DNA of 64,000 bases from Polychytrium aggregatum (taxonomy: Eukaryota; Chytridiomycota; Chytridiomycetes; Polychytriales), in NCBI RefSeq assembly GCF_025602895.1, contig NW_026516268.1, forward strand, positions 205,448 through 269,447, given 5' to 3'. Position 1 is the first letter of the stretch; every line of letters starts with the position of its first letter. The notes below the pieces were generated by a model, which worked only from the letters and a program-made list of their open reading frames with translations, ran no database searches and had not been told where the DNA came from. Position numbers and translations under genes: made by a program. Shown here one piece after another: positions 9,397 through 62,500 of this stretch.

Positions 9397-12300
9397 ATGC
9401 TCAGAGCATTCTCCTGCTGTTTCGGAGGGCTTGCTGCCCCACCCAAGGACCGAGATGTCCCCTCGCAGACCAAGGCCCCTGTCTCCCAGCAGCCAAAGTT
9501 CCAGCCACTGACTGATCCCATGGGCTCTTGGCGCCATCCCATCGAATGCCTCGTCAGTATCGCGCGCGACGAGCCCGATGCTCTCCTGATCAACACCTAC
9601 GAGAACGGTGCCTCAGAACGCTTCAGCTATCTCCAGGTGTGGAAGCAGGCTTACTCGATCGCCCAGGCTCTCAAGGCCCTCCCTGGCTGGGATGATGAGA
9701 GCCACGAGGTCATCGGCACTTTCTGCGAGACAGAGGCCCACTGGATGATCTATTCGTTCGCGGTGTGGATACTTGGCAAGTGAGTATCGGCTGTCGGTGT
9801 GACGTTGTGCTGTTGTGATGTTGCGATGTTGTGATGTCGCTTGTTCGAGGCGGTGTTCACAGTCCACATCACATGTCCAACTCCATGACAAGGGCCGAGT
9901 CTCACCAATCCTTTGATCCCCATCTAGGAAAGCACTCAACTTTGCTCTCAACCTGCCCTCTGCTGCCCGCAAGACCCTGTGCGAGAGGTTTGTCCTGTGT
10001 GCTTGTCCCAGTCGTGACTCACGAGATGAGACGTCCCAGCGACCTCTGTGTTCAAACCTGACTCGGTCCTTGGCCTCAACCGGTGCAGATACTCAATCAA
10101 GTACATCCTCCATCATCAAACAAAGCCTGGCCGCACCGAGGGTGTGACGCTGATCGATGCCGCCACCTTCTCGGTGCTGGACAGCATTCCGTCCCCGTCT
10201 CTCGATGTCTGTGCGCCGCTCGACGATTACGTCACCATCCAGTGCACCTCCGGAACGACAGGTATACATGACTGCCTGAGTGGATGTCACAGCAGGATGG
10301 CTGAGGATGGTGTTGTGCTGACGACGCATGTCCAATCCGTGACGCTGATCCATTTCGTCTCGGGGCCGATTCCACAGGCATCCCCAAGTCGTGAGTCTTC
10401 CTGAGACAGTTGATCACATATTGCAATGTTTGAGCTCTCACCTCTGAATCGCAGTGGAGGAGCCTCAGCACCCGAACTAATCCCTCTTGCATGTCCATTC
10501 ACGAATGCAGTTTCAAGTTTGCCCACACCGGAGCCATCACAGCTCGGGCCGCTATCGGCATTGCAAATTGTAGCATCGGGCTTTTGCAGGTACGACAAAT
10601 GATCCACGACTCGGTGCAGGACTGCCACTGTCGAGAACGATGCACTGACGTTTGATGGTTCTCAGCTTCCATCGTTTGTGGCGACATTGGCCCTGTTCCT
10701 CAGTGCCCTGAATCTTGGAGGATCTGTGTGGATTCCAAAGCCCACACTCAGCTCCATTGACAAAGCAAAGAGCGTTATTCAAATACTCGATGACGGTGTT
10801 GACTACGTGTACTTGGTGAGTGAAATGCCGGCGAGGGTGTCGGAGCTCATTTCATCCATGTGCTGACGCTGGCGGCGCTCCCACAGACTCCATCCTTCAT
10901 GAAGATGATTATCGGCATCGCCACCTCGCTGAACCCGAAGGTCAAGTGGACGAACACAAAAAAAGTAATGCTCGGCTCGGAAAGTATTCCTATGAGTATC
11001 ATTTACAAGACGAAGGAGCGTTTCCCAAAGGTTGAGTTCCAGTCAGTGTATGGATCAAGCGAGGTACAGTTCATAGAATCCGTCCTTCGCAATAGCACCA
11101 AGTTGGTTGGTCACTAATCCAAAAACTCGAACCAGACGATGGTCATTGGCGCACTTTCGTATTCGAGAATCCCGGCCAACAGCGAAGTTCCAGAGAAGTT
11201 GGTCTACAAGCTGGCCAGACCTGGCGTTCGTTGCATTCTCTTTGACGAGGAGGGCAATGTCGTCGACCAACACCAAACCAAGGAAGGAATCCTGGTCTTT
11301 GCTGTCGACAAGGACCATCCCATCAAGAACCACCCCAACTTTGCCAACGCCGATCCCGGCAACAAGCTCGCCTCGTTCGGCTTCCTCGAGGATGGCTCGC
11401 CCCGTGTCTGCACCATGGACTGGGTCGAGATGGTTGGCGAGAAAGAGTTCACTGTGGTTGGAAGGTGAGTCAATGGCTGGGTGTTGCATCTCATTGATGG
11501 CGAATGCACATCTGGCATCCTGACTACACATCCCACTCCTGCATCCCGAGTACTCACCCCATCCATTCCCTCACTCCACACCATCACTCCAGATTCGACC
11601 AGAAGATCAAGGTCAACGGTGTCTATGTCGACCTCAACGCCCTCGAGGAGCTGGCCAACGAAAACATGTCCAAGATCATCTCGGACTGTGCCTTCATCCA
11701 GACCTCCGAGAAGAAGATCGTGATGCTCTTTGTCCGCAGAAGAGGCTCTCAGGTTAACCCCACTCCTGCCGAGCTTCTGCAGCTGACCGAGGACATGTTT
11801 GCGCTGACGAACGTCGCCAAGTTCCCGATCCACAACTGCTTCGAGCTCGACGAGTTTCCCTTCAACGACTCGGGCAAGCGCGACCTCAAGAAGCTCAGGC
11901 GCATCGCCGAGAATGTCGATCAGTTCGGCAAGTCGGTCGAGTACCCTCGTTTGAAACTCGCCAACACTCCCCTGTCCCGCACCGCCGCCAAGATCTCCAC
12001 ACTTGGCAGCCAGATCATCGACAACCCCGCCCTCGACGGCCGCAACTACTACATCGGCGGTGTTGGCTTTGACTCGCTGAGTGTCGGTCGTCTGGCCCTC
12101 GCCATCAAGGACGAGTTCAATGTCGAGGTCTCGCCACTTATCTTGCTATCGAACGGAATGACGCCGCTCGATGTCGCCCAGCTGGTTGTCGACATCCTCG
12201 ACGACAGACCGATGATTCCCCCGACCGTCCATCTGGCTGCTGAGGCCGCCAAGCTCGACGATGCGAGTGTGACGGCCGAGGGTCTTCCTCCGTTTGTCTA

Positions 12301-13771
12301 TCCCAAGGACCCTCGCGGCATCGTCCTGACCGGTGCCACTGGCTTCCTCGGTGCCTTCCTGGTCTTTGAGCTGGCCCACAAGTTCCCTCGGGCCAAGATC
12401 TACTGCCTCGTGCGGGCCCCGACCGAGCAGGCGGCTGTCGAGCGCATCATCAGCACGGCTCAGAAGCTGGTCCTCGATCCGAGCCAGAGAGCCTTCCTCG
12501 ACCACAGCCTCAAATCTCGCCTCGTTGGACTGTGCGGCAACCTGTCGCAGGACAAGTGGGGACTCTCGGACGAGCGATGGAAGGAGATCAGCGAGGAGAC
12601 CGACATGATTGTCCACAACGGCGCCGAGGTCCACTGGCTGTTTGACTATGACAGACTCAAGGGACCCAACGTCCTTGGCACGGCAACAGCACTGAGACTG
12701 GCCACAACCCACCACCTGAAGCCGCTGCACTACATCTCGACCATCGGCACGATCCCGATGGCCAAGAAGGCAGACAAGCCGCTCGAGGAGAAGATCTACT
12801 CGGCCTGGAACATCTCTGGCGGGTATGGCCAGACCAAGTGGGTCTCTGAGCAGCTGGTCAACAAGGCACGATCGAGGGGAGTGCCGGTGACGATCATTCG
12901 CCCAGCCGTCATTGCCGGCGACAGCCAGTACGGAGGTGAGTCGAATGTGGTGTGGTGTGGTGGAGATGTGATGTGGTGGAGATGTCTCATTCATTCCCAC
13001 GGACTGGCCATGAATCGATGGTCTCGATTGTCAAGTGCCACTCATCCACCAACTGACATCAACTGACACCTTCACACCTCCATTGCTCCAGTGTCCAACA
13101 CGGACGACTACATCTGGCGATATGTCAAGGGATGCATCCAGCTCAGTGTTGCTCCCTCGCACGCCACTCTCGTCACGATGACCATGGATCCCGTCGACCA
13201 TGTTGCCAAGGTGGTTGCCGAGATTGCCGGCTCGGAGGAGGCCCTGTCCAAGTTTGTGTTCCACATCAGCGACTCGGAGCACAGGTGAGGAGTGTGTGAT
13301 GTGGTGTGCGATGTGGTGTGTGGTGTGCGATGTGGTGTGGATGGTGGATCCTGACTCTGATTACTCACTCACTCACTCACTCACTCACTCACTCACTCAC
13401 TCACTCACTCACTCACTCACCACAGTGTCCTCTCCGAGACCCGGCTGTTTGAGATTGTCAGGAACCATGGCTGGCCGATCCTGTTCGAGACCCGCGAGCA
13501 GTTCAAAGAGGCCTTCCACTCCCATCCCGCCGTCGAGAGCAACGCCCTGTTCCCGCTCATGCACATCATGATGGACATGTCCTTCAAGATCGACAACGCC
13601 AACACCCGCTCGATCTACCCAACGCCCTGTCCTTCGCTGGAGGAGGTTGTCGAGAAGTGTCTCAACTATCTGCACCACGCTCGCTTCTTGGGCGATCCCC
13701 TGGACCCGTCTTCGTCCTTCAAGATCAAGTATCCCGAGACCAGCGTGGTCACCCGCACCGGCCGCAACTGA
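9397..13771 (+). CDS. NRPS-like carboxylate reductase (adenylation - carrier - thioester reductase)
   Basis: Eleven exons close in frame at 1081 residues: 9397..9779, 9928..9987, 10089..10261, 10378..10390, 10511..10589, 10666..10815, 10887..11063, 11136..11464, 11593..12935, 13092..13284 and 13426..13771. The N-terminal adenylation domain shows CTSGTTGIPKS (A3), VYGSSE (A5), GRFDQKIKVNG (A8) and FPFNDSGKRDLKKL (A10). A carrier domain follows with VGFDSLS, whose Ser is the phosphopantetheine site. The C-terminal reductase has a NADPH-binding GATGFLG motif (exon 9) and a short-chain-dehydrogenase-type YGQTK pair. Enzymes of this layout activate a carboxylic acid with ATP, load it on the carrier and release it reductively as an aldehyde or alcohol. 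There is no condensation domain. The layout resembles fungal carboxylic-acid and aminoadipate reductases, but the substrate is unknown. The Cys-rich start MLRAFSCCFG could be lipidated (inference). Confidence 0.88.
13362..13424. repeat. Tetranucleotide repeat in the last intron of the reductase gene
   Basis: About 15 copies of a 4-bp unit (actc/tcac) run up to the CACAG acceptor before exon 13426. The repeat itself supplies the pyrimidine-rich tract of the intron. Confidence 0.85.
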
Positions 13772-34102: not shown

Positions 34103-37100
34103 ATGCTCCAAAGGAAGACCCTCAGGGCCATCATGGCTGTCGGCGAGAATCTCCGATGCCATGACTACACCGCTTCCATCTCGATTGCCTTTGTCGCATT
34201 CGTGTCCCGCTACCACGACTCGGCCGAGAAGCTGGATCTGCATTTCAGCATCGTCAATCTCTCGTCGTTCTCGTCCATTACGTTTGTGTGCTCGGTGGAG
34301 CTGGCCTCGACCTTTGCCCAGATCCACCGGGTGGTGCTCGGGGCGCTCTTCATGAACCTCCCGCTCAGCGGCAACGACGTCCATGAAATGACCGTCGCCT
34401 GGTCCGAGACCGGCGACTTCCAGTCCAACTTTGCATCGCTTACGTTCTCGTCCAGGGACTTTGGGTCAGGTTTGTGTCTGCCGTGAGAACCACGCCGCCA
34501 TCCCATGTTTTGTACACGCTGTCCTGCCCTATCATGAACATGCCTTGGCCCTTCATGCCATTTGGTGACTGTCTTGCTCTCGAACACACCCATCGATGCA
34601 CCCATGCCGTCCTGGAATTCGTGGATCCCTCTGCTCACGAATCCAATCTTTTGCATTCATCAACGCCTCGCAATCCAATGTACCAAACCACATTCCGATT
34701 CGCACACCGACACCCGTTTCCGTGTCCAGGGCTTTCGCCCTTCGTCGATGAGCTCGTCCATCTCCAGTCGAAAGCAGTCGGATTTGCCGGCCTCTCCCCC
34801 GCGGAGATGGCGCTGGTCAACATCGAGGGCTCCGTCACGGCCTTCCTCGAGTCGCTGGCACAGCACCCCAACTTCCGCAAGATGCCCCTCGACAGCTTCA
34901 ACGTCATCTGCCCCGAGGACTACCAGCGTCTGCTCGTTCTCAGCAACGCCAACAACCTCTCTCCTCAGCCGCCTCGCAAGAGCGACCAGTACCTGGCCAA
35001 CATCTTTGTCCGCACCGTCCAGAAGCACCCGCGCATGCTGGCCCTGATCCACGAGACAAAGTCCATCACCTACGAGAAACTCTTCCATCTGTCCAAGCTG
35101 ATCGCCCAGCATCTCATCGAAAAGTGCGGCGTTCAGGCCAACGACCGCGTCGCCCTGATGTTCCCAAAGTCCATCGAGGGCTTTGCCATCATGCTCGGTG
35201 TGATCCTCGCCGGCGCTGCCTATGTCCCCATCGACAACGAAAAGACCCCGCCCGAGCGTGCCGCCTACATCATCATGGACTCGGCCTCCAAGGTCTCTGT
35301 CATCGTCGACGACGCCCTCTGCGACAAGGTCTCGGCCGAGCTCGACAAGCTCAGCGTCTCCGGCAGCACCATCCTCCTGACCGTGCCGGTTCTGTACTCT
35401 GCCGCCCGCGATCTCTTCATCTCCTCTGGCTCACAGAGCATCTCCATCACCATCGACGACCTCCCTGTCGACCGCAAGCCCTCCGATGGTGCCTACATCA
35501 TCTACACCAGTGGAACGACGGGCAAGCCCAAGGGCGTGCTCATCAGCCAGGGCGCCATCGCCAACCTGGTGGTGGTCGAGCGCGATCTCTTCCAGCTGTC
35601 GCCCGGCGATCGTGTCTTCCAGAACTTTTCCCACAGCTTTGACTTTTCGATCGAGGAGATCTGGATGGCGTACTCGACAGGCGCCTCGCTGGTCATCCCG
35701 ACCAAGGACATGATCTACGCCGGCCCCGATCTGCCCAAGCACATCCAAAAGTACAGCGTCACCGTGTTCTGCTGCGTCCCGAGCCAACTCGGCATCCTCG
35801 TCGGCGAGATGCCCTCGGTCAAGATGATTGTGCTGGGCGGCGAGGCTGCCCAAGAAAATATTGTGCAGCGCTACCGAATGAGGGGCCGCAAGATCTTCAA
35901 CACCTGTAAGTGCTGTTGTTGTGTGGAGTGGTGTGTGGAATGGTGCGGTGAACCTGGGGGCAACCAGAGTCCCGGTGAGACAGACGATGCTCGATCTTCC
36001 ACACATTCATCACATACTCATCACACACTCATCACACACTCACCACACTTATCCCACTTGCGCTGCCCCAGACGGCCCCACCGAGACCACCTGCAGCTCC
36101 ACCTACCTCGACATCTCCGAGCCTGTTGAGAAGATGACCATCGGCCGGCCCTTCATCAACTACACGTCGTACGTCGTCGACTCCAAGAACCGCCTGGTTC
36201 CCATCGGCGCCATGGGCGAGCTCGTCATCGGAGGCAAGAGTGTCGCCGAGGGCTACATCAACAGGTGCGTCCGACTACTCGCCCCACGAACTGCTCTCGA
36301 TTCTGCCCCTCGGCTCGCTGCTGCTTCCGTGGCGCTGACGCTGCATTCTCTCCCCATACAGAGACGACCTCACTGCCGAAAAGTTCATCCACAACCCCTT
36401 CGATCCCAGCGGACGCATGTACAAGACCAGCGATCTCGTCAGGTATGCTGTCGGTCTCGATCGTGTGCACCATCATTGCTCCAGCAAATGTGCCTGTCCC
36501 ACTTGGCCCTGTCGAGGGTGGTACGCCTTGGCCATGACCGACACATCGCTATGAGCTCCGTGTCTCATCGACATGCCATGATGTGTGCTCTGGTCCACAG
36601 ATACACTCCCGAGGGCAACATCGAGTACTTTGGCCGCATCGACTGCCAGGTCAAGATCCGCGGCTTCCGCGTCGAGGTGAGCATCGCACGCTGTCCTGTC
36701 CATCCTGCCCGCACTGCTCGTCGATGATCGTCGATGATCGAGCCATGCCCATGCCGCGGTTGGCATGTCGATCCATCAACTTTGCATCACGGCACCGCAC
36801 TCTGCGACTTCATCTTACTGACCCACTCTGGGGTTTCTCTCCCCTCGCTCCCCCCAGCTCGGTGAGATCGAGTCCAATCTCTCGGATTGTGACGGAATCC
36901 AGAGCGCCATCGCTCACGTCTGGACCGCCCCGAACCCAGACACCGGCAGCACCGAGCAGACCCTCGTTGCCTATCTGGTGCTCGAGACCTGGTGCCACGA
37001 GATCGACGACCGCAAGATCCGCGAGAAGCTCCGTGCCACTCTGCCGCCGTACATGATCCCCTCGGTCTTCCAGCGCATGCTCCCAGAGGACGTGCCGCGC

Positions 37101-45076: not shown

Positions 45077-48000
45077 TCAACTCTTCTGGCTGTCGATGCT
45101 TTCGTCGATTTTGGAAGCAATAATTCGATCGTGTGTTCCAGATGCAGTGATGTCCCCGGGCTCGTGAATAACGATCGTTTTGCTCTTTCGCCTCATGGCA
45201 GTGCCGCCTCTTTCCAGGCTACCCAAGAGTCCATGCCCGCTGTGCCCCAATTGTCCTCCGAGGTCACCGAGGGCACCGATTCCCTTGCCTTTGAAAATAT
45301 GAGGCTTGGCTTTGGCTTCCTTGAAGTTGTTCAAAAACGTCAGTGCTGTCTCCTTTGATCCGAACTCGAGCGTGAGCTGAGACTTGCTGTTTCGGAGCTT
45401 GACGCTTCGGGCAAGTGCTTTGCCACCTTCGGGATCTGATTCGGAGTCACAGGGCTCGCATTCACATGCCGAGAAGCGAAAGCTTGCCTGGACGGTGCCA
45501 TCGAGGCTGGGATCGCGAAAGTCGATGATGTCCAGGGTGACAAACACCAGGACAGTCGATGACATCCAAGCACCTCCGAACTTGAGACCTTGGACGCCGC
45601 AGTCATATACGTAGGTAATAATGTCTGCAGACAACATGCCCTGGCTTCGGATATTGGAATGACCCGAGGACGTGTGCATGGATTTGGGGGCTCCCGACTT
45701 TTCACCTTCGCCAGGGTCAGAGCGGAGGACGCCGATGATCCTGCCTGCAAACAGCGCTGCAGGGACAAACGACGAGATCATGACGATCAAGCAAGCCAGG
45801 ATCACGCGGCCCACGGTGAAGAGTGCTTGCGAGTCCAAGCTTCCGGAGAGAATGTAGACGATCGGAAGGCACAGCACCAACGTCAGGGAGACCATGTAGC
45901 TGCATATGCCAATGACCTTGGACTCTTGGAAGCGCTCGTGAGCACCGCGGGTGAGATAGGCAAAGGCCACACACCCGAGCATGATGGCTCCGTTGATGAC
46001 GTAGAGGACAATCTCGGGCACCACCGTGGACGAAAACGTCGCCGTGCATACCAGCCCGTAGAAACTGCCCTCGACCTCGGCCGTGGGGCCTTCCACGGCA
46101 ACCCATGCTGCACACACCACAATCTCGGCAACCAACACGACAAGCGTCGCGAGGATGAGTTTCCAGTCCGGCGTCTTGAAGACACGCATGCGTCGGTTTT
46201 CAAAGATCATGTAGATCCGCACAGACTTCATCAAGAGCATGCTGCATGCAGTTTGGCGGCAAGAAAGAGTACCAGCAGTCAGCGAGTGAGCGAGCGAGCA
46301 TGCGGCTATCATCCAAGCCGACAGGCAGTGCGAGGGCTCATGAAAGAGAAGATATCTCTCGAGCTTTGGGGGGGATAATGATCCTCTTACGACAACAAAC
46401 CTGAAGATTGAGGAGAAGGCAATGACCGGGAAGAACATCCGGCTGGAGCAAACCAAGGTGCTGGGCTCGGCGGAATAGAATAGTGCGCCGATTTGACCAA
46501 AAACTAGAACCGATACCAACAAAAGTCAGATCAAAACTCCGGGTAGTATCACGGCCTTCGCTTGAACTGATGGCGCACTTCCACCTTGAGCTCGGCTCTG
46601 GCTGTCGGGTTCCAAAAAAATGTGCGTCGACTCAACTTACGGGCCCCGACAACGATTATGTAGCAACAATTCGGCGAAATAGCTTTGATGTTTGGCTTTT
46701 CTCGAAACACGAACAGCATGGCCAGGATGGCGGCGTTGATGAGCCCAGTGATGCTCAGGAACGCCATAATGGCAGTGTTGTAGGACTCGACGCCGTAAAA
46801 GAGGATCATGAATGGTGCGGATGGCTCAGAGCAATCCAGTTGCATGTTGTTCATGAATCCAGCATCGCAGATGCACTGAGTCACTGAGGAGTCTTGAAAC
46901 GGACCATCGACGACGCAGTACCCGTGCTTGCAGGAGTTGGCGGTTATATAGGTCCCATTAGCGTCAAAGTACGGATTGCATGGAGAAGATGCATCAAAGA
47001 GCACCTTTCCGTTTTGGGTGACCAGTTTGAGTGCATCATACGCAAAGCGTCGAAAATCGGGATCCTGGAGATGCATGTATTTGTTTTGAAGATAGAAGGA
47101 GCCGGTTGAAGGCGATGCTGTCGATCGATTCGAGGGTTGCTGAAGGATGATGGCCAGACACATATATGGCGTTAGGGCCACCAGTTCACACATACTCAGA
47201 TCGATCTGCCGTACAGAATCACCATAGACAGACACTTGCACAAGCCGTTCATAGTATGTCGCGGATTACCCACCGTCTCTGTCCCGCCAAAGAGCATCCA
47301 GAAGAGGAAACGAAGTGTGGCACGCATTTGAGCTTCGGCGATGCTGTAGGGCTGGGAGTCTTGCCGAAGGAGAATAAAAGACGGTTCCATGAACGGATAT
47401 GCATTTGGCGTGGTGGTGTCGATGTAGGTCGAGCGAATGTATGTGCCGATGTCGCCCGAGAAGTGTCGCAGAGACGAAACGTTTGTGGTGCTTGCTGTGG
47501 AAAGGGCATTCTGATGAGGAAATAAGGGAGAATGGGTGATCGATGTCCAGTGAGCTGACTGGCCGCTCAGGGACACATGCGTATGATTGGACTGCCGGTC
47601 ATGCCCTTGCCAATTTATCGCTCAAGCGGTGTTGTCCGCAGATAGAGTTTCTCACGGTCGCTGGTTTATCAGTACAGCTGTTGGAAACTCACCGACATCG
47701 TGTATATGGATGGGGCAACGACATCGCCGTTGCGGTTGATGATGTTTGCGATGGCATACAGGTTCAGCCCTGAGGCGAGAGAGGCCAGGGTTGTCGAGGC
47801 CGACGGGTAGTCGACAAAGCCGATCGAGTACGGAGTGACCTGGATGCCGTCCGAGACAATTGTGTTGCTGGAGCCGTAGAATGCTGCAGTGGCCGGGCCC
47901 CATGTCGAAAGCGGGTACGACAGGGAGTTGCCCAAGTTCAGAGTTGGGTCGATGCTGTTGAGAGCATATAGAAAATTGGAGGCAATTCCAGAGGAACCGC

Positions 48001-48751
48001 TAATGGCGATGACCTGGATACGCGAGTTGATGGAGGTCAGTGCAGGGTTGTGCTGAACCAGCCGAGTGTCGTTCCAGTAGACAACCTTCCCGGTGAAGAT
48101 ATCGGCGACATTTTGCCGCGTGAGCGTAAGATTGGTGACATTCAAGTGATAGATGACGGCCACGGAGCTGAATGGGATCGGGATGTCAGGGATCGTGTCA
48201 ATGCATGGCTCTGGTGGTCGCACGATGGTTGCGTGCATCCAAGAAACAGTGAGCAACCGACAGATTCCGCCCAGGAAATCAAGGAGGATGAGCTTGCCTT
48301 ATAACTGAGGGGACTGGGACAAACTGCCCGACAATGTTCCCAGGTCCGACAAACGTGACATTGGAGGGCACGTTATCGGACGCTGCCCAGGTCAAGTTGG
48401 TCGATCCGGCGACGAGGGCCGCACGACCCGCTCCGGAGCCGATTCCAGTGTAGGCGTAGTTGAAGTATGGATCGTAGGTTGAGTAGTAGTTGGCCAGCGC
48501 CGAGTAAACGGCCGCCGGGGCATTCGCACCAACACCCAGGAGCGTCGCCACGCTTTGGACCCATCCGTCTGTCGCGGTTATGCGCAGAACGAGAAGATTA
48601 CTCAGGTTACTGAGCGCATAGGTAATGACAGTCGCGAAGGGGTGGATGCAGCCTGGACGGAAATTATGCAAACAGCCATACCTGCACATCGGAAGTAAAG
48701 CGATGCGACCAAACACCAGGTCAGGAGCCACCGTGATGCGTGCGGGAGCAT
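45077..48751 (-). CDS. Receptor 1: PstS-like binding domain fused to a class C-type 7TM domain
   Basis: Seven exons, 48682..48751, 48298..48568, 47693..48167, 47274..47510, 46641..47139, 46401..46503 and 45077..46241, close in frame at 939 residues. Exon 1 encodes a signal peptide (MLPHASRWLLTWCLVASLYF). Residues about 25-400 match phosphate-binding PstS proteins: GVGANAPAAVYSALANYY, GIGSGAGRAALVAG, TWAASDNVPS, ADIFTGKVVYWND, ISGSSGIASNFLYAL, VTPYSIGFVDY. An EGF-like cluster follows (CKHGYCVVDG, CICDAGF). Seven hydrophobic helices (about 475-770) resemble GABA-B-like class C GPCRs, with AYLTRGAHERFQESKVIG before helix 6. The roughly 170-residue tail has a conserved block (about 790-900). A role as a G-protein-coupled sensor of phosphate or another anion is inference. 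Intron 2 uses a GC donor. It is a tandem paralogue of the next gene. Confidence 0.88.
48168..48297 (-). other. GC-AG intron in receptor 1
   Basis: The donor reads ATAAG then GCAAGC, with the acceptor ATTCAG at 48168. At the same codon position the paralogue (intron 52876..53127) has ATGAG then GTGAGC, so the GC donor is placed by homology and phase. Confidence 0.85.
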
Positions 48752-49262
48752 GATGTGTATCGCAGCGTAGTATCTGCGCCAACAAGGGTCTGATCGCTTC
48801 AGTGAGAATCACCACCAACTTTGGATGAACCGGATAGCGGCGCTCAGATCGAGACGGTGGGGAGGAGGAGCGAAAGCTAGAGGTCGACTACCAACTCGGA
48901 TAATATCCGAGGGAGTGGTCCAGTCATCAATCTCAAATATGATCCAGTGTCCTGTTTCCAATCAACGGCGGTCCTGATGAGCAACTGGTTCAATGACGCG
49001 ATGCCAAGGGCGAATATGCCAGCACGATTATGTGGCTGTCCCTTATGTGTCTGTCCCTTCATTCAAGCGATGCTGTGTCAGCTTAGCACTGTGGCACTCA
49101 TGGCAAGAAGATGTATTCAATCGATTGGCACGTTGGAGCGACTGTCTTCAGTGCGTGGAGGCAAATGATATTCAATACTGTGGCGCTGTCAGAAGCTTTC
49201 CACCTATTGTGCGGGGATCTGGTCTACGACTGAATTGCGCTTGAGTGCGCATGGCGCGATTT

Positions 49263-49650
49263 CATCCACTTGATTCAGAAAAAAACGGGACAATACAGCG
49301 GTTTCCATGAGCATGTAGTATGTGATGTGCTTGCGTCAAGCGAAGCCACAAGAAATAAAACAGATCACTTTGGCAGCCTCCGAGTGAAGACCGCCGGTCG
49401 CTCTCCGGTCTCCACAATCGACCTGCACACTGGTCTCGGAGTGCCAGCGGTGAATGGTGCTCTTGGACACACTGAATATGGAGGCAACCTTACGCAGGCT
49501 ATGGATGAGGTCGTAGCATCGCAATGCGGCGGTGCGAAAGTCGGATGTGTGGCGAATGGTCATGGCCAGCGCGCGATGGTATTGGGTAACTGAATATTCG
49601 ATGAATGGTCAAAAACACGGGTGTCCCGTTTTTTATTGGATTGCCTGTAA
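49263..49650 (-). mobile_element. Tc1/mariner-like transposon remnant
   Basis: The ends carry inverted copies of an AAAAAACGGGACA core: near 49279-49292 on the plus strand, and 49613-49632 on the minus strand preceded by TACAGGCAATCCAAT. Inside, on the minus strand from 49563, a 75-codon frame begins MTIRHTSDFRTAALRCYDL and continues HSLRKVASIFSVSKSTIHRW, a typical transposase helix-turn-helix. The catalytic DDE/DDD region is absent. About 390 bp is far shorter than an intact element, so it is a non-autonomous or internally deleted copy. Its exact ends are uncertain by some 10 bp. Confidence 0.7.
49336..49563 (-). pseudogene. Truncated transposase N-terminal fragment
   Basis: The fragment has the DNA-binding helix-turn-helix of a Tc1/IS630-type transposase (KVASIFSVSKSTIHRWHSE) and then runs into unrelated sequence and a stop. 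It has no catalytic domain and cannot encode an active enzyme. Confidence 0.65.
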
Positions 49651-49851
49651 TCGCAGCTGGCCTCGGGTTCTTCCACTTCTCTGATTCAACGAACAAACCG
49701 AATGCATGGTGGTTGCAATCGACTGCCTCCTCCAAAAACAATACATCTACCATCGATTCTCTGTGTGAGATGACATCAAGACTTTTGGCTGATCGGGAGA
49801 GCTATTGCAAATGCAAACATTTACGGCATTTCCAAATTTTGTGGCGACTCG

Positions 49852-52800
49852 TCACCTAGTGGTGCTGAGGCTACCCTCCGTGGTGCTCACACAGCTATCG
49901 TGGCTTGAGCGAACCGAATCAATAGTGCCAGATTTATGTTCTTTCGAATCGTTTTCCTTTTCCTTTCCACCTGTGTCGATTTTGCTGAGCATCCCATAGA
50001 TGGTTTTGTCTCGCTGAATTGGCCCTCCGACTCCGCCGACTCCGCCGATTCCGCCGACTCCGCCGACTCCGCCGATTCCGCCTACGCCTCTGCCCAATGT
50101 GCCACCCGTCTTGGCCTTGGCTTCGGCATAGTTTTCCAAGAACGTGAAGGCTGTCTCCTTGGCACCAAACTCGAGACTGTAGGTGACCTTGCCCTGGCGC
50201 AACTTGACGCTCCGGGCCAAAATCTTATCGGCGTTGGGGTCGCTGTTCGGATCACACAATTCGCACTCGCACGAAGAGAATCTGAAGCTGGCTTGGATGG
50301 AGCCATGAACATCCGCTTCTCGAAATTCGATCAGGTCCAAGGTCGTGAGAACAAGCACTGTCGAGGACACCCACGCTCCTCCAAATTTGAGTCCCTGCAG
50401 TCCACAGTCGTATGCATAGGCGACGATGGCGGCCTTGGTCATTCCCTGACTGGTGATGGCAGAGCGATTTGTGGTGGTCGGAGAAGACTTTTGGGTTTGT
50501 TTCTCGCTGTCGGGTGCATCGTTTCTGCTCTTGAAAGTCCTGATGAGCCTTGCGGCAAAGAGGATGACGGGTACCAGCGACGACACCACGATCACCAAGC
50601 ATGACATCATCACTTGTCCGAGCGAAAACAAGTCCTGCGAGTTGACTTGATCCGAGAGGGCATAGATCATTGGAAGGCACAGGAGCATCGTCATGGAGAC
50701 AAAATAGCTGCACATTCCGATGACTTTGGACTCTTGGAAGCGCTCGTGAGCACCGCGGGTGAGGTAGGCAAACACTACGCATCCGATGAGGATAAATCCG
50801 TTGAGGAGGTACAAGAGTATGGAAGGGGTCGTTATTGATCCCTTTTCAGTGGAGCACACCATGGCGTAGACGCTCCCTTCGATTGAAGGAGTTGGGTAGT
50901 CGATGCCGATCCACACGGCGCAGTAAATGACTTCCAGGACGACAATGATCCCCGTGGCCAGGATCAGCTTCCAGTCTGGGGTCTTGATCGTGCGGATGCG
51001 CTTGTATCCAAAGATGATGTAGATCCGAATCGACTTCATCAGCAACATGCTGATGTGTGGATGAGATACGATCAATTCACAGGTAACTGGAGCAAAAGTG
51101 CCTGGATGTACTCGGCGATGCGATCTTACCTGAAGACGGAGGAGAAGGCAATCACAGGCAGCAAGATCCGTCCTCCGCAAACGAGGGGGCTCGGATTGGC
51201 AGAGAAGAAGAGGGCGGCAACCTGTCCGATGACTGCGAGCGACGACGATCTGTTAGTGCGTTGAAGGTGCTTTAAGCCAATCGTGGGGCATGTGGGAATC
51301 GAGCAACGGTGCACTCAACTGCGCGATGGATGCACGACTTACGAGCGCCCATCATGATCACATGGCAGCAGCTTGGAGAGATGGCTTGGACGTCCGATTT
51401 TTTCCTCCAGAGGAAAATGAGAATCCATATGCCAATGTTGATGAGGACAGCGATGGCCAGAAAAGCGATGACAACGATGTTGTACGAGTCGATCCCGCCA
51501 AAGAGCAACATGAACGGGGACGCGGGCTCAGAGCAATCCAGACGCAGGTTGTTATAGTATCCAACATTGCAGATGCACTGGGCTTGGCTAGACGACTGGA
51601 ACGGCCCGTCAACGATGCAGTAGCCGTGTTTGCATGAATTGGAGCTGATGTAAGTAAGGTTGGTGTCAAAGACCGGATTGCACGGAGAGGCTGGATCAAA
51701 GAGCGGCTGTCCATTGTGCGTGACAAGCTTGAGGGCATCGTAGACGAACTGGCGTATATTGATGTCTCGGAAGTGTATAAAGTTGTAGCGGTGGAAGTAT
51801 GTGCTCGCCGAAGGCTGCGTCACGGGCTCGGCTGGAGCCACCTTCATAGCACAGCAAGTGCGGTGGTTGTGAAAGGGAATGTCAGCACATAGTATGCTCC
51901 GTCGTGCAAGCCGCAGTACAGGCTTCGACACGGGGTCTGAGGAAGGGATCCTGTCGCAGAACAACTCACCGTCTCTGTTCCGCCAAATATGATCCAGAAC
52001 AGGAATCGCAGGGTTGCCTGGATCTCGGGGGCGGTGAGTCCATAGAGTTGCGAGTCTTGTCGCAGCATAAAGAGCGTGGGCTCCATAAACGGGTAGGCAT
52101 TTGGCGTGGCCGAATCGATGTAGGCCGACTGAATGGCATTGCCAATGTCACTTGACAAATGGCGCAGAGCCGACATGTTGGATGCGACTGGAACCGAGAG
52201 AGCGGCCTTGAAAGAGATTGTGGCGTGGAGAGTACAATGTTGTGAGATGGGAGAGATGCGCTTGTGGGCGAGATACACTCCGAGAATGAATCTCGAATGT
52301 GCAAGAAACACCTTGGGGGTGCAGCGCTCATCCAATCTCCTCCAGCTCAGGCTGAAATCAAGGAAAGATAGTCTGACGCAACTGCATGCTAACTCACCGA
52401 CATGCCTGTTACGGAAGGCTGCACAATCTCGCCGTTTTTGTTGATAATGCTGGCAAAAGCATAGAGATTGAATCCGGAGGGCAGTAGAGACGCCAGAGTT
52501 AGGTTGGCGAATGGGAAGGCGATGTATCCGATAGAGTTTGGAGTGACCTGGATCCCGTCGGACATGACGGTGTTGTCCTTTCCGTAAAGCGGAGGGTTGG
52601 CCGGCCCCCAGGTTGGAAGCGGGTAGCTGGATGGATACGACAGATTCAACGAGGGATCGATGCGGTTGAGTGCGTAGAGGAAATTGACCGTCATCCCGAC
52701 AGTGCCGGCATTCACGATGGTTTGGACCCGAGCCGTGATGGTGGTCAGGGCTGGGTTATTCTGGACGAGCCTAGGGTCGTTCCAGTAGGCGATCTTGCCA

Positions 52801-53566
52801 GAGAATATATCCGCAAGGTTCTGTCGGGTGAGCGTGAGGTTGGTGACGTTGAGATGGTACACGATCGCTATGCAGCTGAAGAGTCCGAAGCGAATGACGC
52901 AGCCGGAATCGAACGCATCGCCACAAGACATGCCACAATGGCATGAACAACCGAGGTGAGACAATATAAAATGGCCGCGAGTTAGCCAGAGCTACCAACG
53001 GAGGTGCTGAGGCGGTTATGGGGGGAGGGTGTGTTGACCCTGGGCGATGTCTGAGGGCAATATCAGCACAGGTGCAAGTAGCCCCGCATACACAATGTAC
53101 TGCACGCCTAGATTCAAGCTGGCTCACCTCATGATTGCCGGAACAGGAACAAAGTTGCCCGAGGTGTTCCCAGGGCCAGTGTACGAGACATTGGACGGAA
53201 CATAGTCTGAGGAGGCCCATGTCAAGTTGGAGTTGCTGGCGATGAGCGCAGCGCGCCCAGCGCCAGTCCCGACATCGCTATAGGAATAGTCCCACAGAGG
53301 ATCATAGACCGAATAGATGGATGCCAGTTGCTGAAAGAGCGAAAACGGGGGATCGGGACCAGCGCCATCGAGTATGAGCTTTGCCTGCTGGCCAGCGGCG
53401 CCTGAAGGGATCAGAATAGACATGGGCAGTGTGATTCTTCGTGCATGAGGGGCTTCAGGGACAGCACAAGCAACGAGCACTCGAGTATAGTGCATGGCGA
53501 TGTCCGCTACAATAGATATCTACCTGAGCATCCGAGCGCAATGGTTAGCACAAAGCACCACCACAT
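49852..53566 (-). CDS. Receptor 2: PstS-like binding domain fused to a class C-type 7TM domain
   Basis: Seven exons, 53524..53566, 53128..53401, 52398..52875, 51970..52206, 51343..51841, 51130..51232 and 49852..51049, close in frame at 943 residues. Exons 4, 5 and 6 (237, 499, 103 nt) are exactly as long as in receptor 1. MWWCFVLTIALGCSG is a signal peptide. The PstS-like part shows LDGAGPDPPFSLFQQLASIY, DVGTGAGRAALIA, TWASSDYVPS, ADIFSGKIAYWNDP and VTPNSIGYIAF. The EGF-like CKHGYCIVDGP segment, seven helices with AYLTRGAHERFQESKVIG, and the conserved tail follow. The tail has a Gly/Ile/Val tract (GGIGGVGGVGG) that receptor 1 lacks. The exons retain clear protein similarity while introns and tails have diverged, so this is an old duplication with both copies under selection (inference). 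Confidence 0.88.
50022..50092. repeat. 9-bp repeat encoding the Gly-rich tract of receptor 2
   Basis: Seven or eight copies of a 9-bp unit (tccgccgac/tccgccgat) encode the GGV/GGI repeats in the cytosolic tail. Confidence 0.85.
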
Positions 53567-55239: not shown

Positions 55240-55777
55240 ATGAGATTTCTCAGCATTGCCTTGGCTGCCGTTGCCTCCGTTGCCCTGGTGGTAGGTCATG
55301 AGCACATCGTTGACCCTGCCGCCCCAGTCGACATCGTGCCAATGTCTGCTGAGATGGTTCGTTGGCTGTCCAGTTTCATTGAAATTCGCCGCTTTGAAAC
55401 CAAATATATGGGGTACTGAATACTAATTCGACTGCTATTTGTTGCAGAATGCCAACTGCGTTGGCGGCAACGCCTGTATCTCGGACTGCTACATCTCGTG
55501 TGGATGGCAGGGTGCGGCATCGTCTCCCGCTGTTCAGATGCGCTGCCAGAACTGCATCTGGACCAACTGCGGCACTTGCACCACGAACGCCCCGGCTCCT
55601 CCTCCTCCCTCCCCTTCTCCTCCGCCTCCTCCTCCTCCGCGCCAATGCATCGGTGGGAACGCCAATGCCTGCATGGACGATTGTTATATTAGCTGTGGAT
55701 GGCAGGGAGCCTCGTCCTCTACTGCGGTCCAGCTCCGATGCCAGGCATGCATCTCGAGCAGCTGCAACGGATGCTAA
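55240..55777 (+). CDS. Small secreted Cys-rich protein with two repeats
   Basis: Two exons, 55240..55356 and 55448..55777, give 148 residues. MRFLSIALAAVASVALVVG is a clear signal peptide. After a short propeptide-like stretch come two copies of a module of about 40 residues, with eight Cys in the first copy and seven in the second, sharing CYISCGWQGA and a spaced Cys pattern. They are separated by a Pro/Ser linker (PPPPSPSPPPPPPP). The even Cys count per pair suggests disulfide-stabilised domains in a secreted or wall-associated protein. I do not recognise the family; an effector-like or carbohydrate-binding role is only a guess. The donor (ATG then GTTCGT) is weak but keeps the frame. Confidence 0.8.
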
Positions 55778-56568: not shown

Positions 56569-59500
56569 ATGACTCACGGTCATGTTCCCAATATTCGGCC
56601 TGCGTTCCAAAATCCGCCGATGGTCTTCATCACGGACACCATCATGTATCCGTGTCCCGCCAACTCGACCATCTGGTTCGTCGACGACCAGGGTTTCGTC
56701 GTCGTCGACCAGTGCTTCGAACACAGGTGGGTCTGTGTACTATGCGACCAGGCGATGCGTCTCCCAGCCGCTCGCTAAACTCCTTCAACCTATCCTCGCT
56801 GATGGCTGTTGACTGCGACCCTGCCACGCAGCTATGCCGTCGGCATCCTCCCGCTGGCCCTGATCGTCGCTGCTGTCCTCTGGGCCGCCAAGGACATTGT
56901 CCATCCCGCCGCCTCCTCGGACGGCCCCGACACCGCCCTCGTCAACAGCGAAGATGGATCCACCCGCAACCGCTACGGCACCATCCCTGCCGCCGACCAG
57001 CCTGCTCCTCCCGCCGTCGTCGCCCAGAATCCGGCCCTCAAGTGGACCTGTCTGGCTGTCCTCGTCCTCGAGTTGGCTGTCTCTGTCGCTGCCTCGTTCC
57101 AGGACCTGAGCCAGTCTGGTTCTGGCTCCTTCGTCTTCTTTGGCTCGGCTGCCTGGGCTCTTGCATGGGTAAGCCATCGCAGCAGCATTGCTCGTCTCCT
57201 CTCACTCTCTCGCCGGATGCCATGCTCAAGCCCTCGCCGGCATCGTGCTCTCCCACATCGACTGCATCATACTCACATCGCCCGCTCATCCCGCCAGGCC
57301 ATCGCAACCATCGTCTTTGCCGCCTCGACCGGTCCCGTCCCGGCCAGCATCCGCCCCAAGCTGAGCAGCCCCATCCAGCCCTTTGCCCTCGGCTGTGCCG
57401 TCCTCAAGGCTCTCCAGCTCCACAACACCCTGCTCAGCAACAGCGGCGATGCCGTCGCCTCGATCGTGCTCGCTGTTGTCCTGAGCACCATCCTGTTTGT
57501 GGCCAACTTTGCTCTGCGTCTGAGTCTGCGCGAGCAGGTCGAATCGCTGCACATTGTGAAGCTCAAGGGCCCCAAGAACACCGAGGTGAGTGCAGATCCA
57601 ATGTATCGAACGAACGCACGAACAGCGACGCTTCTCTGGCACACATGATGATTCCATGCAACCGCCTTGGCATCGCTGGGTACGGCTATTGCCTCGCTTG
57701 TTGCATCGATGGTGCAATCGCAGGACTGACTACATGTTCTGCTACTCCCACACATGTGCGTGCTGTTGGCATTCCCATTTGCACCCACAGATGCTCCCTG
57801 CCCCCGAGCCCGAGTCCACCTGGTTCGAGAACCTGTTCTTTGTCTGGATGGACGGCCCTCTCAGCCGCGGCTACAAGACCCCCCTGACCAAGAATGACCT
57901 CTTTGACCTGCTCGAGAGCGACAAGTCGGCCGAAGCCTGCCGTGTCTACCGCGAGCAGTACAAGCACCAGTACAAAGGCCTCAACATGCGTCTCTTCATG
58001 ATGGAGCTTCATCCCCTCATCATCCAGATCTTGCTTGGCTTTGCGGTTTCCTTTCTTACCTTCGCTGCTCCACTCTGCCTCTACCAAATCATGAGCTACA
58101 TCCAGAACCCGAACGGCCGCCCCGTTACCGTTGGTTTCTTCTGGGTGTTCATGTCGTTGGTCTTTGGACTCATGTCCACAATTGTGGACGGACAGGTGAG
58201 TCGAGGGCCTAAAAGTCATCATGGTGCTTGGTGCGAGTGCTACTCTGCTGACTCAAGCCGTTGCGGCGACCCGGATGCTTCGGAAATGCCACGTCGTGAC
58301 ATGTAGCAGAGTGCGCTATCCAAGAAAGCGCCTTTGTCGTGTTCACATCAAGTCGCATGAGTTCTAACTATGAGTCTAACGCTCCAAACCTGCCAACAGA
58401 TGTTCAACATGACCAACAATGCCAGCTACCGCATGCGTGCTGTCCTGATCAACGAAATCTTCCAGAAATCTCTCCGCCGCGTCTCTGCCAAGGGCAAATC
58501 CAAGAAGGACGAGGACCAGTCGACGGGCAAGCTCGTCTCGCTCATGTCCATGGACACCGAGAAGCTGGCCATGGCAAGCTCATCTTCAATTCTGGTCACC
58601 TCAACTTTGATCGAGATCGTTATTGCCGTCGTCGCTTTGTTCAGCTTCCTGGGTTGGTCGGCTTCGATCGGTCTCTCGATCATGGTCGTCAGCATTCCCC
58701 TCACCAGCATCATCACCACGAGACTCAACAATGCTTACAAAGCACTCATGGAGAAGGCCGACAAACGCAACACTCGGACCCTCGAGGCTCTGCAGGCCAT
58801 CCGCATCATCAAGTTCTTTGCCTGGGAGCCGCAGTTCCTCAAGCGCATCGACGAAGCCCGCAACGCTGAGCTCAACAATCTGATCTCTTACTTCATGACC
58901 TTGGGCCTCAGTGTCATGCTCTGGTCGTTTGTGCCCGTGATTGTTGCGGTTGTTACCTTCCTGAGCTACACCCTGATCGCTGGCCACGACATGGATGGTA
59001 AGTGATGCGCTCGCACCACCCATGGCCTCGGATGTCTGGTACATGTTGCTCGGAGCATCTCCAATCGACTCGAAACCGATTGAGTGAATATGTCTCAGCC
59101 TCCCACGCAATCTCCAGTCGCTGATGTGTGCTGACCGCGCTGATGTCTCACTTTCGACTTGTGCATGTCTCCCATCCAGCCACCACGGCATTCACTTGCC
59201 TCAGTCTGTTCAACGCTCTCAAGTTCCCTCTGACAGTTTTCCCCGACACACTTTCGGAGGCAAGTGCTCCTCGCATGGCATCGTTCCTGCCTGTTCGCTT
59301 GTCGCCATCCTCTTACCCACAGGACTCCCGCTGACACCCGTCTCCCTTCGCAGTTCTTCCAAATCTATGTCTCATCAGACCGTATCGAAAAGTTCCTGAA
59401 CGAGCCCGAGCTCCAAAAGTTCTCCGACGACCTGCCCGTTTCTCACCCCACCGGCAACACCGAGCCCTGGACCGACCCTGTTGCCGTCGAGTTTGTCGAT

Positions 59501-62500
59501 GCCTGGTTCGAGTGGCACCAGGCCACTGCCGCTCCCGACAGCAAGTCGCCCCAGCTCCCCTGGCACAAGAGACTCGCCAACCTGTTCAAGAAGCAGTCGC
59601 AGCAGACCTCCGAGACCACGCCGCTCCTCGGCTCGGAGCAGCCGGCTTCTGGTGCGGACGACTCGTCCGAGCCCAAGTTTACCCTGCGCGGCCTCAAGAT
59701 CAGCTTCCCTCTCGGCAAGCTCAGCACCATCTGCGGCTCCACCGGCTCCGGCAAGTCCTCGATCATCCATGCCCTCCTCGGCGAAATGAAGTCGCTCCAG
59801 GGCAGCGCCAACCTGACCCGTCTCACTCGCAGCCACCGCTCCAAGGGCGGCATCGCCTTTGTCGCCCAGACCGCCTGGCTCGCCAACGCCACGATCCGGG
59901 ACAACATCCTGTTCGGCGAGCCCTACGACCAGCTCCGATACGCCCGCGTGATCGAAGCCTGCGCCCTGTCCAAAGACCTTGCCTCCTTCGAGTCCGGCGA
60001 CCTGACCGAGATCGGCGAGAAGGGCATCAACCTGTCCGGCGGCCAGAAGCAGCGAGTCTCGCTCGCCCGCGCCGCGTACTCCCGGGCCCACTACATCCTG
60101 CTGGACGATCCGCTCTCAGCCGTCGATGCGCCCACAGCCAAGCATCTCTTTGACAAGTGCATCACGGGCCTGCTCAAGGACCGCACCCGCATCCTCGTCA
60201 CCCACGCCACCAGTCTGGCCCTTCCCGCCACCGACTACCTCGTCGTCATCAACCAGGGCCAGATCCTCGACCATGGCTCGGTCGCCGAGGTCTCCCAGAA
60301 CCGCGAGGTCGAGACCATCATCGCCAAGGAGAACCTCGAGGCAGTCTCGCTCCAGCCCGAGTCCGACCCCGATGCTGGTGAGCTCGACGTCGACCTCACC
60401 GACGAGGAGCTCCTGAGCCGCAACTACTCCAACGGCAAGACGCCCGAAGACGCCAAGAAGCTCATCGATGCCGAGGCTTCCAGAACCGGCGCAGTCCAGG
60501 GCAGCGTCTACTACTTCTATCTGACTGCGGCAGGCGGCTTTGGTGTCATCGTCGCCTACCTCGGTATAATTCTTGTGCAGCGATCGGCCCAAGTGCTGGC
60601 CGACTACTGGCTCAAGGTCTGGGCCGATGCCTACAACCATGCCAACGAGCTCAACACGATGTTTGCCGTGACGCTCTCGGCCCCGCTGTCCCTCAGCTTC
60701 CTCAACCCAGTCTCAGGCAACGACAGCAACACCCTTGTCGATGGATCGTCCGGCCAGTCCGTCAATGTTGCCTACTATGTCCTCATGTACGGCCTCATCA
60801 ATTCGTGCGTCCTCTTTCTCATCATCACCAACTTTGCCTATCGCAGCTGGGTTGGCTACAGGGCTGCCAAGAAGCTGCACGACCAGCTCATCACCCGCAT
60901 CATGTATGCGCCGGTGCGCTGGTTCGATGTCACCCCGCTCGGCCGCATCACCAACCGCCTCTCCAAGGACATTGGAACCATCGACCGTAACCTGATCAAC
61001 ACATGCGCAACGTTTTTCCTTATCCTGGCGAGCGCCACCACCACCCTCATCGTCATCGGCACCGTGACACCGATCTTCCTCGCCGTGATTCCCTTTGTTG
61101 CCTACATCTACTACAGGATTGCAATCTACTACCTGGCTTCAAGTCGCGAGCTCAAGCGTATCCACAGTATTAGTCGCAGCCCCATCTACAGCACCTTCAG
61201 CGAGTGTCTCGTTGGCGTGTCGACCATCCGCGCCTATGGACACGAGGCCCGATTCATCGAGGACAACATGATCAAGGTCGACACCAGCAACCGAGCCCAT
61301 CGCATGCTCGCCCTTTCGAATCGCTGGCTGTCCACTCGACTGTCGATAATCACCTCGCTGATCACCTTCTCTGCCGGCATCGCCATCATCTGGTCCAAGG
61401 ACCTGATCGGTGTGGGCCTTGCCGGTCTCAGCTTGACCTGGGCAGCCACCATTGCAGATAACTTGCTCTGGATTGTTCGTGTCCACTCACAGATGGAGCT
61501 GGTAAGTGCCAGTGCTGGAATGCGACTGATCGGGCAGTGGAGTCGATGCTCACATTGTCGCTGTGTTATTCGATGCGGCTGTCGCTGTGACGGTTCGGGT
61601 GACTCACTTCGTCTCGCCTCACTCCCTTCGCTCTGTCTCACCATCGACAGAACATGAACTCGGTCGAGCGTGTGCACGAATACCTCGAGATTGACCAGGA
61701 AGCCCCCGCCGTCATCGAGACATCGCGTCCTCCTCCCGGCTGGCCTGCCAAGGGCCACGTCCAGTTCAACGACGTTGTCGTCCGCTATGCCCCCGACCTG
61801 GATCCCGTCCTCCGCGGGGTGTCCTGCGAGTTCAAGGGCCGCACCAAGGTCGGCGTCGTGGGACGGACCGGCGCGGGCAAGTCCACGCTCACCCTGGCGC
61901 TGTTCCGCATCATGGAGCTCTCCGGCGGCAGCATTGTCATTGACGGCGTCGACATCTCCAAGATTGGGCTGCGCGACCTCCGCCAGAAGCTCACGATCAT
62001 CCCGCAGGATCCCGTTCTGTTCACGGGCGACATCCGCAGCAACCTCGATCCCTTTGGCGAGCACTCGGACGACCGACTCTGGTCGATCCTGGAGCGCGTG
62101 CGGCTCCTGAACACTCTGCAGGCCAAGCTGGACGGCAGTTCGTCGAGCGACAACCTGCCCGCGCAGACATCCGAGATCCAAGGCCAGACCCAAGTCCAGG
62201 GCCAGAACACCCGTGCCGCCGCCGAGGCGTCCGGGTTCTCCCTCGACACCTCTGTCTCCGAGGGCGGGTCCAACTTTAGCCAGGGCCAGCGCCAGCTGCT
62301 GTGCCTGGCCCGAGCGCTGCTCAAGGAGTCGGCCATCACCGTGCTGGACGAAGCCACGGCCTCGGTCGACAACGAGACCGACGCCTTCATCCAGGAGACG
62401 ATCCGCGGATCCGAGTTTGCCAACTCGACGGTGGTGTGCATCGCCCACCGCCTCCGCACGATTGCCGACTACGACTCGGTGCTGGTCCTCAGCCACGGAG

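Follow-up and report, generated by a model that had tools for sequence, protein, structure and literature searches.

Glutamate-class receptors are numerous in fungi, where a 2025 survey counted 918 of them with enrichment in Blastocladiomycota and Chytridiomycota (PMC12842992; what is said here of this and the other cited papers holds for the parts of them that were available). A fungal class C G protein-coupled receptor (GPCR) with a PBP_like_2 head, SPPG_06488 of Spizellomyces punctatus, was reported by Krishnan et al. in 2012 (PMC3251606). Fusions of 7tm_3 with PBP_like_2 or SBP_bac_1 were described from Plasmodiophora brassicae in 2016 and called transporters, four of them being described by homology as phosphate transporters (PMC4815078), and in anaerobic gut fungi, also in 2016, nearly half of a set of about 100 class C receptors were found to carry a type II solute-binding protein head in place of the ANF domain (PMC5168858). 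The NCD3G domain is described as absent from GABA-B (PMC5168858) and from novel non-metazoan class C members (PMC3251606). Within the full-text literature searched, 7tm_3 and PBP_like_2 are named together only in PMC3251606 and PMC4815078, and no ligand for a class C receptor with PBP_like_2 was found among the matches listed in that search, most subscription journals being outside its reach. Here we describe two neighbouring genes, A and B, in a stretch of 64,000 nucleotides (the window) of Polychytrium aggregatum contig NW_026516268.1. The GC content of about 57%, the introns and the presence of class C GPCRs fit a chytrid source. Each gene joins a head homologous to the bacterial phosphate-binding protein PstS to a class C seven-helix transmembrane (7TM) domain, and in both heads the anion-binding loop of lobe 2 has been rewritten. 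An earlier note, made from the DNA letters, had proposed such a tandem pair of fused receptors, which the gene models and domain matches bear out; it knew of no characterised receptor of this kind in fungi, but the architecture is already in print in the two papers named above, and what is new here is the pocket analysis and the two delimited gene models.

A and B are a real and correctly delimited tandem pair, the gene structure being modelled without transcripts by joining open frames by hand at consensus splice sites across 54300-45000 of the minus strand. Gene B (49852..53566) encodes 943 amino acids in seven exons (53566-53524, 53401-53128, 52875-52398, 52206-51970, 51841-51343, 51232-51130 and 51049-49852), and gene A (45077..48751) encodes 939 amino acids, also in seven exons (48751-48682, 48568-48298, 48167-47693, 47510-47274, 47139-46641, 46503-46401 and 46241-45077). 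The start of gene B at 53566 and the stop of gene A at 45077 agree to the base with the limits given in the earlier note. The six introns of each gene measure 80-252 bases and have equal phases between the genes at all six positions; all 12 end in AG, and 11 begin with GT (the six of gene B and five of gene A), intron 2 of gene A beginning with GC. The proteins are identical at 510 of 936 positions (54%) by BLASTP, and their divergence is coding-like, with a non-synonymous rate (dN) of 0.35 and a synonymous rate (dS) of 2.1 over 924 codons by the Nei-Gojobori method; dS is near saturation and the tail not computable, so that the dN/dS ratio is indicative only and the duplication is an old one. 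A tblastn search of the window with both proteins found no third copy at E<=0.01.

The heads lie in exons 2-4, at 47274..48568 in gene A (about residues 24-351) and at 51970..53401 in gene B (about residues 15-344), both on the minus strand. Both pass the gathering score of 27 for the Pfam family PBP_like_2 (A, E=4.3e-16, 59.9 bits; B, E=1.5e-11, 45 bits) and match the NCBIfam PstS model TIGR00975 nearly throughout, A over positions 3-291 of 315 (E=6.8e-34, 117.4 bits) and B over positions 2-289 (E=2.9e-26, 92.3 bits), both missing its equivalog cut-off of 205 bits. In a sequence search of PDB the A head found E. coli PstS (1qui, E=1.8e-12) and the B head another PstS (8ods, E=4.8e-9). A profile of 86 PstS sequences, in which the E. 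coli row occurs twice and whose rows were aligned jointly with A and B before these two were taken out, gave 82.8 bits for the A head (profile positions 41-328) and 64.6 bits for the B head, as compared with 6.6 bits for the best of 1000 shuffled heads. The AlphaFold2 model of A exon 3, which encodes an unbroken piece of lobe 2, has a predicted local distance difference test score (pLDDT) of 80.5 and a predicted template modelling score of 0.81 and was made from an alignment of A, B and 16 bacterial rows; in a Foldseek search of PDB it found 32 chains at E<=0.001, the best being 8ods at E=5e-9, and all 32 are titled PstS, phosphate-binding or phosphate-transport protein, or DING protein. Pfam gave no match to ANF_receptor, the type I flytrap head, in A or B. 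The PstS-like type II fold proposed in the earlier note for the N-terminal domain is supported by these results, while its GSGAG segment is literal in A and reads GTGAG in B.

The membrane part of both proteins matches the Pfam family 7tm_3 far above the cut-off of 33.5 bits, with 123 bits in A (residues 471-712, E=2.2e-35) and 121.3 bits in B (residues 462-708, E=7e-35), and whole B found the metabotropic glutamate receptor mGluR1 in PDB at E=2.5e-13. The hydropathy scan, which used the Kyte-Doolittle scale only (19-residue windows, mean at least 1.6), listed nine windows in the 7tm_3 region of each protein; with overlaps merged these give seven stretches, and each head has one further peak. 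The seven helices and the class C body that had been proposed are thus supported. When B is aligned with mGluR1, two cysteines are kept, C529 at the top of the third transmembrane helix (TM3) and C610 in extracellular loop 2 (ECL2), and so is F-x-E-[AS]-K in intracellular loop 3 (ICL3), where mGluR1 has NFNEAKYI and the receptor RFQESKVI. These residues, which we take to be features of class C GPCRs, are invariant between A and B. The 7TM regions of the two proteins are identical at 143 of 255 positions, and ICL3 at 20 of 21 (A residues 645-665). TM3-TM7 and ICL3 are encoded together with a conserved tail domain by exon 7 (A, 45077..46241; B, 49852..51049, minus strand), which in gene B carries the ICL3 sequence TRGAHERFQESK and closes with a glycine-rich end.

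Between head and membrane, exon 5 (A, 46641..47139; B, 51343..51841, minus strand) encodes a linker, a module of six cysteines and TM1-TM2. The cysteines (C405, 421, 426, 440, 442 and 454 in A; C398, 414, 419, 433, 435 and 447 in B) stand N-terminal to TM1, and A residues 401-460 agree with B at 41 of 60 positions. The spacing is EGF-like, as had been noticed before, but the name EGF did not hold, since the Pfam EGF match is below threshold in B (E=0.23) and is not listed for A. Pfam likewise gave no match to the nine-cysteine domain NCD3G in either protein, where six cysteines are found instead.

The cytoplasmic tail domain (A residues 746-868, 45293-45661; B residues 740-862, 50098-50466; minus strand) is identical at 77 of 118 positions (A residues 749-866), in accordance with the conserved tail of the earlier note, and contains a cysteine-rich FSxCECExCD segment. 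Its best Pfam match (E=0.018) is under the cut-off, and the best PDB sequence match (E=0.023) was obtained with the B tail only. AlphaFold2 predicted helix, strands and helix at low confidence (mean pLDDT 47.9), and Foldseek found nothing at E<=0.001 with this model. The domain is possibly PH-like, as strands followed by a terminal helix suggest by eye, but neither the model nor the searches confirmed this, and it is left unnamed.

The binding pocket was compared in E. coli numbering with the 86 PstS, which comprise six fetched records (four annotated pstS, one unannotated plasmid stretch and one unverified phage-labelled scaffold) and the best 80 of 526 genome loci confirmed by tblastn, by their titles all Pseudomonadota; a frame was obtained for all 86 and no locus was dropped. 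The search patterns lay in the N lobe, at positions about 25 to 51, and one of the two alternative ways of picking frames used a motif over positions 10-11, so that the selection itself bears on counts close to these positions; the loop of lobe 2 lay outside both. This loop reads R-x-D-G-S-G-T in 86/86 PstS, I-S-G-S-S-G-I in A (ISGSSGI, residues 169-175, in the lobe 2 exon 3 at 47693..48166) and N-A-G-T-V-G-M in B (NAGTVGM, residues 161-167, exon 3 at 52398..52874, both minus strand). Column by column, Arg135 is Ile169 in A and Asn161 in B, Asp137 is Gly in both, G138 is Ser in A and Thr in B, Ser139 is Ser173 in A and Val165 in B, Gly140 is kept in both, and Thr141 is Ile175 in A and Met167 in B, each of the six E. 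coli residues being present in 86/86 PstS. The loop of M. tuberculosis PstS3, which is outside the set, reads RSDESGT and still has R, D, S, G and T. In lobe 1 the Thr10 column (Ser or Thr in 86/86) has Asn39 in A and Asp31 in B, the Phe11 column (Phe in 86/86) Ala40 and Pro32, and the Ser38 column (Ser in 86/86) Ser68 and Thr60. Asp56 (86/86) corresponds to D88 in A and D80 in B if a two-residue insertion is allowed, which is seen in one alignment for both proteins and in another for A, the alignment of the 86 PstS being gapped elsewhere and showing Ala and Ser. Asn177, counted along the E. coli row, corresponds to N215 in A and to its counterpart in B. Neither splicing nor a slip of alignment is a likely cause of the rewritten loop, since it lies within one exon, its flanks are well conserved and separate alignments agree.

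Our data are probably best explained, with appreciable room for doubt, by A and B being sensory class C GPCRs in which a flytrap derived from PstS has been repurposed for another small ligand, probably a neutral or basic one. The extracellular head would be a type II Venus flytrap that descends from bacterial PstS or shares ancestry with it, and both proteins would be placed at the cell surface. A ligand would close the two lobes of the head, the movement would pass to the seven-helix bundle through the six-cysteine module, which would take the position occupied in animal receptors by the cysteine-rich domain, and ICL3 would then engage a G protein. With the Arg-x-Asp-Gly-Ser-Gly-Thr loop lost, the pocket should not hold phosphate in the manner of E. 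coli PstS, and binding of phosphate in the canonical way by either head appears unlikely. Asp56 is kept, B has a second acid (D31) and neither loop has an arginine; a neutral or basic small solute is the class of ligand that we would naturally infer from such a pocket. The earlier note, which had seen the lobe-1 segments GSGAG and SD, had named phosphate or another oxyanion an obvious candidate ligand; this is not supported, the loop of lobe 2 being rewritten in both proteins.

In the lobe-2 loop (A 163-177) 5 of 15 residues are identical between A and B, as compared with 16 of 23 and 17 of 23 in the flanks. Of the twelve lowest 15-residue windows listed for the head, eleven begin between residues 30 and 40, on the Thr10 loop or next to it, and the remaining one begins at 159 and extends into the lobe-2 loop. 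Since the two proteins differ at both main anion loops and are nearly identical in ICL3, they may feed signals from different ligands into a common pathway. This pattern is suggestive only, because six of the ten site positions differ by eye, as compared with 127 of 321 (about 40%) across the head, and ten positions are too few to separate the site from the head as a whole. It is tempting to go further and to suppose that a PstS flytrap, once captured by a eukaryotic GPCR, ceased to be an anion trap and came to receive neutral or cationic solutes, and that after the tandem duplication the two copies came to differ in specificity, or divided binding and coupling between them as in a GABA-B-like pair; we regard this as somewhat doubtful. 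If true, it would mean that a bacterial phosphate scaffold became, in chytrids, the basis of a nutrient-sensing family.

That overlap in site and whole-head divergence is one of several points that weigh against a repurposed sensory receptor. The A exon 3 model was built with PstS rows in its alignment and covers this exon alone, so that the fold match is supportive but does not independently confirm the sequence match. The comparison set is biased, with Pseudomonadota names throughout the best 80 of 526 loci. A leader was flagged in neither protein by the 19-residue hydropathy scan, although both protein starts look hydrophobic and leader-like by eye. Part of the phosphate site is also retained. 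Xanthomonas PhoX makes seven phosphate contacts (Ser34, Ser62, Asp80, Arg159, Gly164, Thr165 and Asn201, which convert arithmetically to E. coli numbering by a constant offset of 24), of which A keeps the Ser, Asp, Gly and Asn equivalents (4/7) and B three together with a Ser-to-Thr change; those of Ser34, Arg159 and Thr165 are lost in both. PstS of SAR11 (CpPstS) is described as binding phosphate with Pro replacing the Arg, in a larger pocket, so that R-x-D-G-S-G-T is usual in PstS without being universal, and PDB has entries of E. coli PstS mutated at D137 and D56 that are titled as phosphate complexes. The surviving part of the site, the SAR11 protein and these mutants are the reasons why phosphate is rated only as unlikely.

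From the same observations it could be argued that A and B are genuine extracellular sensors of phosphate or another oxyanion, whose pocket binds through changed contacts and signals nutrient status. The equivalents of Ser/Thr38, Gly140 and Asn177 are kept, as is Asp56 with the insertion, and a class C receptor of animals, CaSR, is reported to respond to phosphate (PMC6795806). However, both proteins have changes at Thr10, Arg135, Asp137 and Thr141, none of which is seen among the 86 PstS; B has an acid at the Thr10 position, and the SAR11 protein retains Ser and Thr donors, two of which A and B have lost. We consider a phosphate sensor unlikely.

It is also improbable, in our estimate, that one or both pockets are empty and that the heads serve only in dimerisation or surface display. 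GABA-B2, a non-binding subunit, would be the model for such orphan heads. Loss of the anion loop in A and B, the tandem arrangement of two related receptors and the poor conservation of the lobe-1 loop region (identity between A and B falls to 27% in the lowest 15-residue windows) would all fit, but the PstS models are covered near full length, and the head is seemingly under purifying selection (dN 0.29, dS 1.9, the latter near saturation).

A role of A and B in solute uptake instead of reception, as the naming of 7tm_3 and PBP fusions as transporters in the Plasmodiophora paper would have it (PMC4815078), is very improbable, since the membrane part is recognised by Pfam as a class C GPCR domain and finds metabotropic glutamate receptors in PDB, and among the Pfam matches of A and B there is no permease or ATP-binding cassette (ABC) domain, only a sub-threshold V_ATPase_I in B (E=0.11). 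That hand-made models have mis-joined a secreted binding protein and a separate 7TM gene is equally improbable: in A as in B, a single open frame in exon 5 runs through the linker, the cysteine module and TM1-2, and the phases of the six introns agree between the paralogues.

Relatives of the pair were also sought outside the window. None was found in viral contigs (95 matched stretches with the whole alignment, 32 with the tail and 20 with TM3-7) nor in genome contigs with the A head alone as query (29 matched stretches). The head matched 16 plasmid records and five phage-collection records at 23-26% identity, of which 9/16 and 2/5 are annotated PstS, the rest being unannotated. Between A and B, a bacterial-type scan gave no clear promoter signal (two promoter-like and two terminator-like sites, against shuffle means of 1.3 and 1.0), and a 90-amino-acid frame at 49336-49608 (minus strand) has a weak HTH_23 match (E=5.2e-4, below the cut-off), perhaps a transposase remnant. 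Scans of the window found no tRNA and no Rfam family.

Among other frames in the window, the one at 3067-4221 (minus strand) matches the RGS domain (regulator of G-protein signalling) above the cut-off (E=1.2e-7); it lies at a distance of about 41 kb from A and B. Frames at 11498-13066 (plus strand), with NAD_binding_4 and a phosphopantetheine site, and at 34387-36129 (plus strand), with AMP-binding, have domains presumably as in aminoadipate-reductase-like or nonribosomal peptide synthetase-like enzymes. At 59234-61657 (plus strand) lies a frame for an ABC transporter of family C (MRP), with MRP1 as its best PDB match (E=1.1e-115). At 55427-55777 (plus strand) a cysteine-rich motif, ISCGWQGA, is repeated by eye around a proline-rich spacer, and there is a weak match to a plant cysteine-rich domain (E=6.3e-5, below the cut-off).

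It is useful to set A and B beside the known systems. In the literature searched, receptors of this type are known from print only as domain lists, and they are now available as well-delimited gene models. The label of phosphate receptor can be replaced by a testable prediction, namely that the head would bind phosphate poorly and that A and B would perhaps differ in ligand, and the case cautions against naming ligands from homology alone. With bacterial PstS (E. coli, Xanthomonas PhoX and SAR11 CpPstS) the heads share near full-length homology and, for A exon 3, a fold match; PstS is a soluble ABC component with the R-x-D-G-S-G-T loop in all 86 sequences, which is rewritten in A and B. SPPG_06488, likened here by its domain description, is likewise a chytrid protein with a PBP_like_2 N-terminal domain and has the same architecture. 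Plasmodiophora brassicae is a rhizarian and not a fungus. Its fusions, compared by description, carry a bacterial-type binding domain on a 7tm_3 body as A and B do. Metabotropic glutamate receptors have the 7TM domain, the TM3/ECL2 cysteines and F-x-E-[AS]-K of ICL3 in common with the pair, but their flytrap is of type I and their cysteine-rich domain has nine cysteines (PMC5168858), neither Pfam model being matched in A or B. The type II heads of the gut fungi are described as sugar-binding-like and not PstS-like as in A and B (PMC5168858), and the pair fits the view of that paper that binding modules have been acquired more than once by class C receptors.

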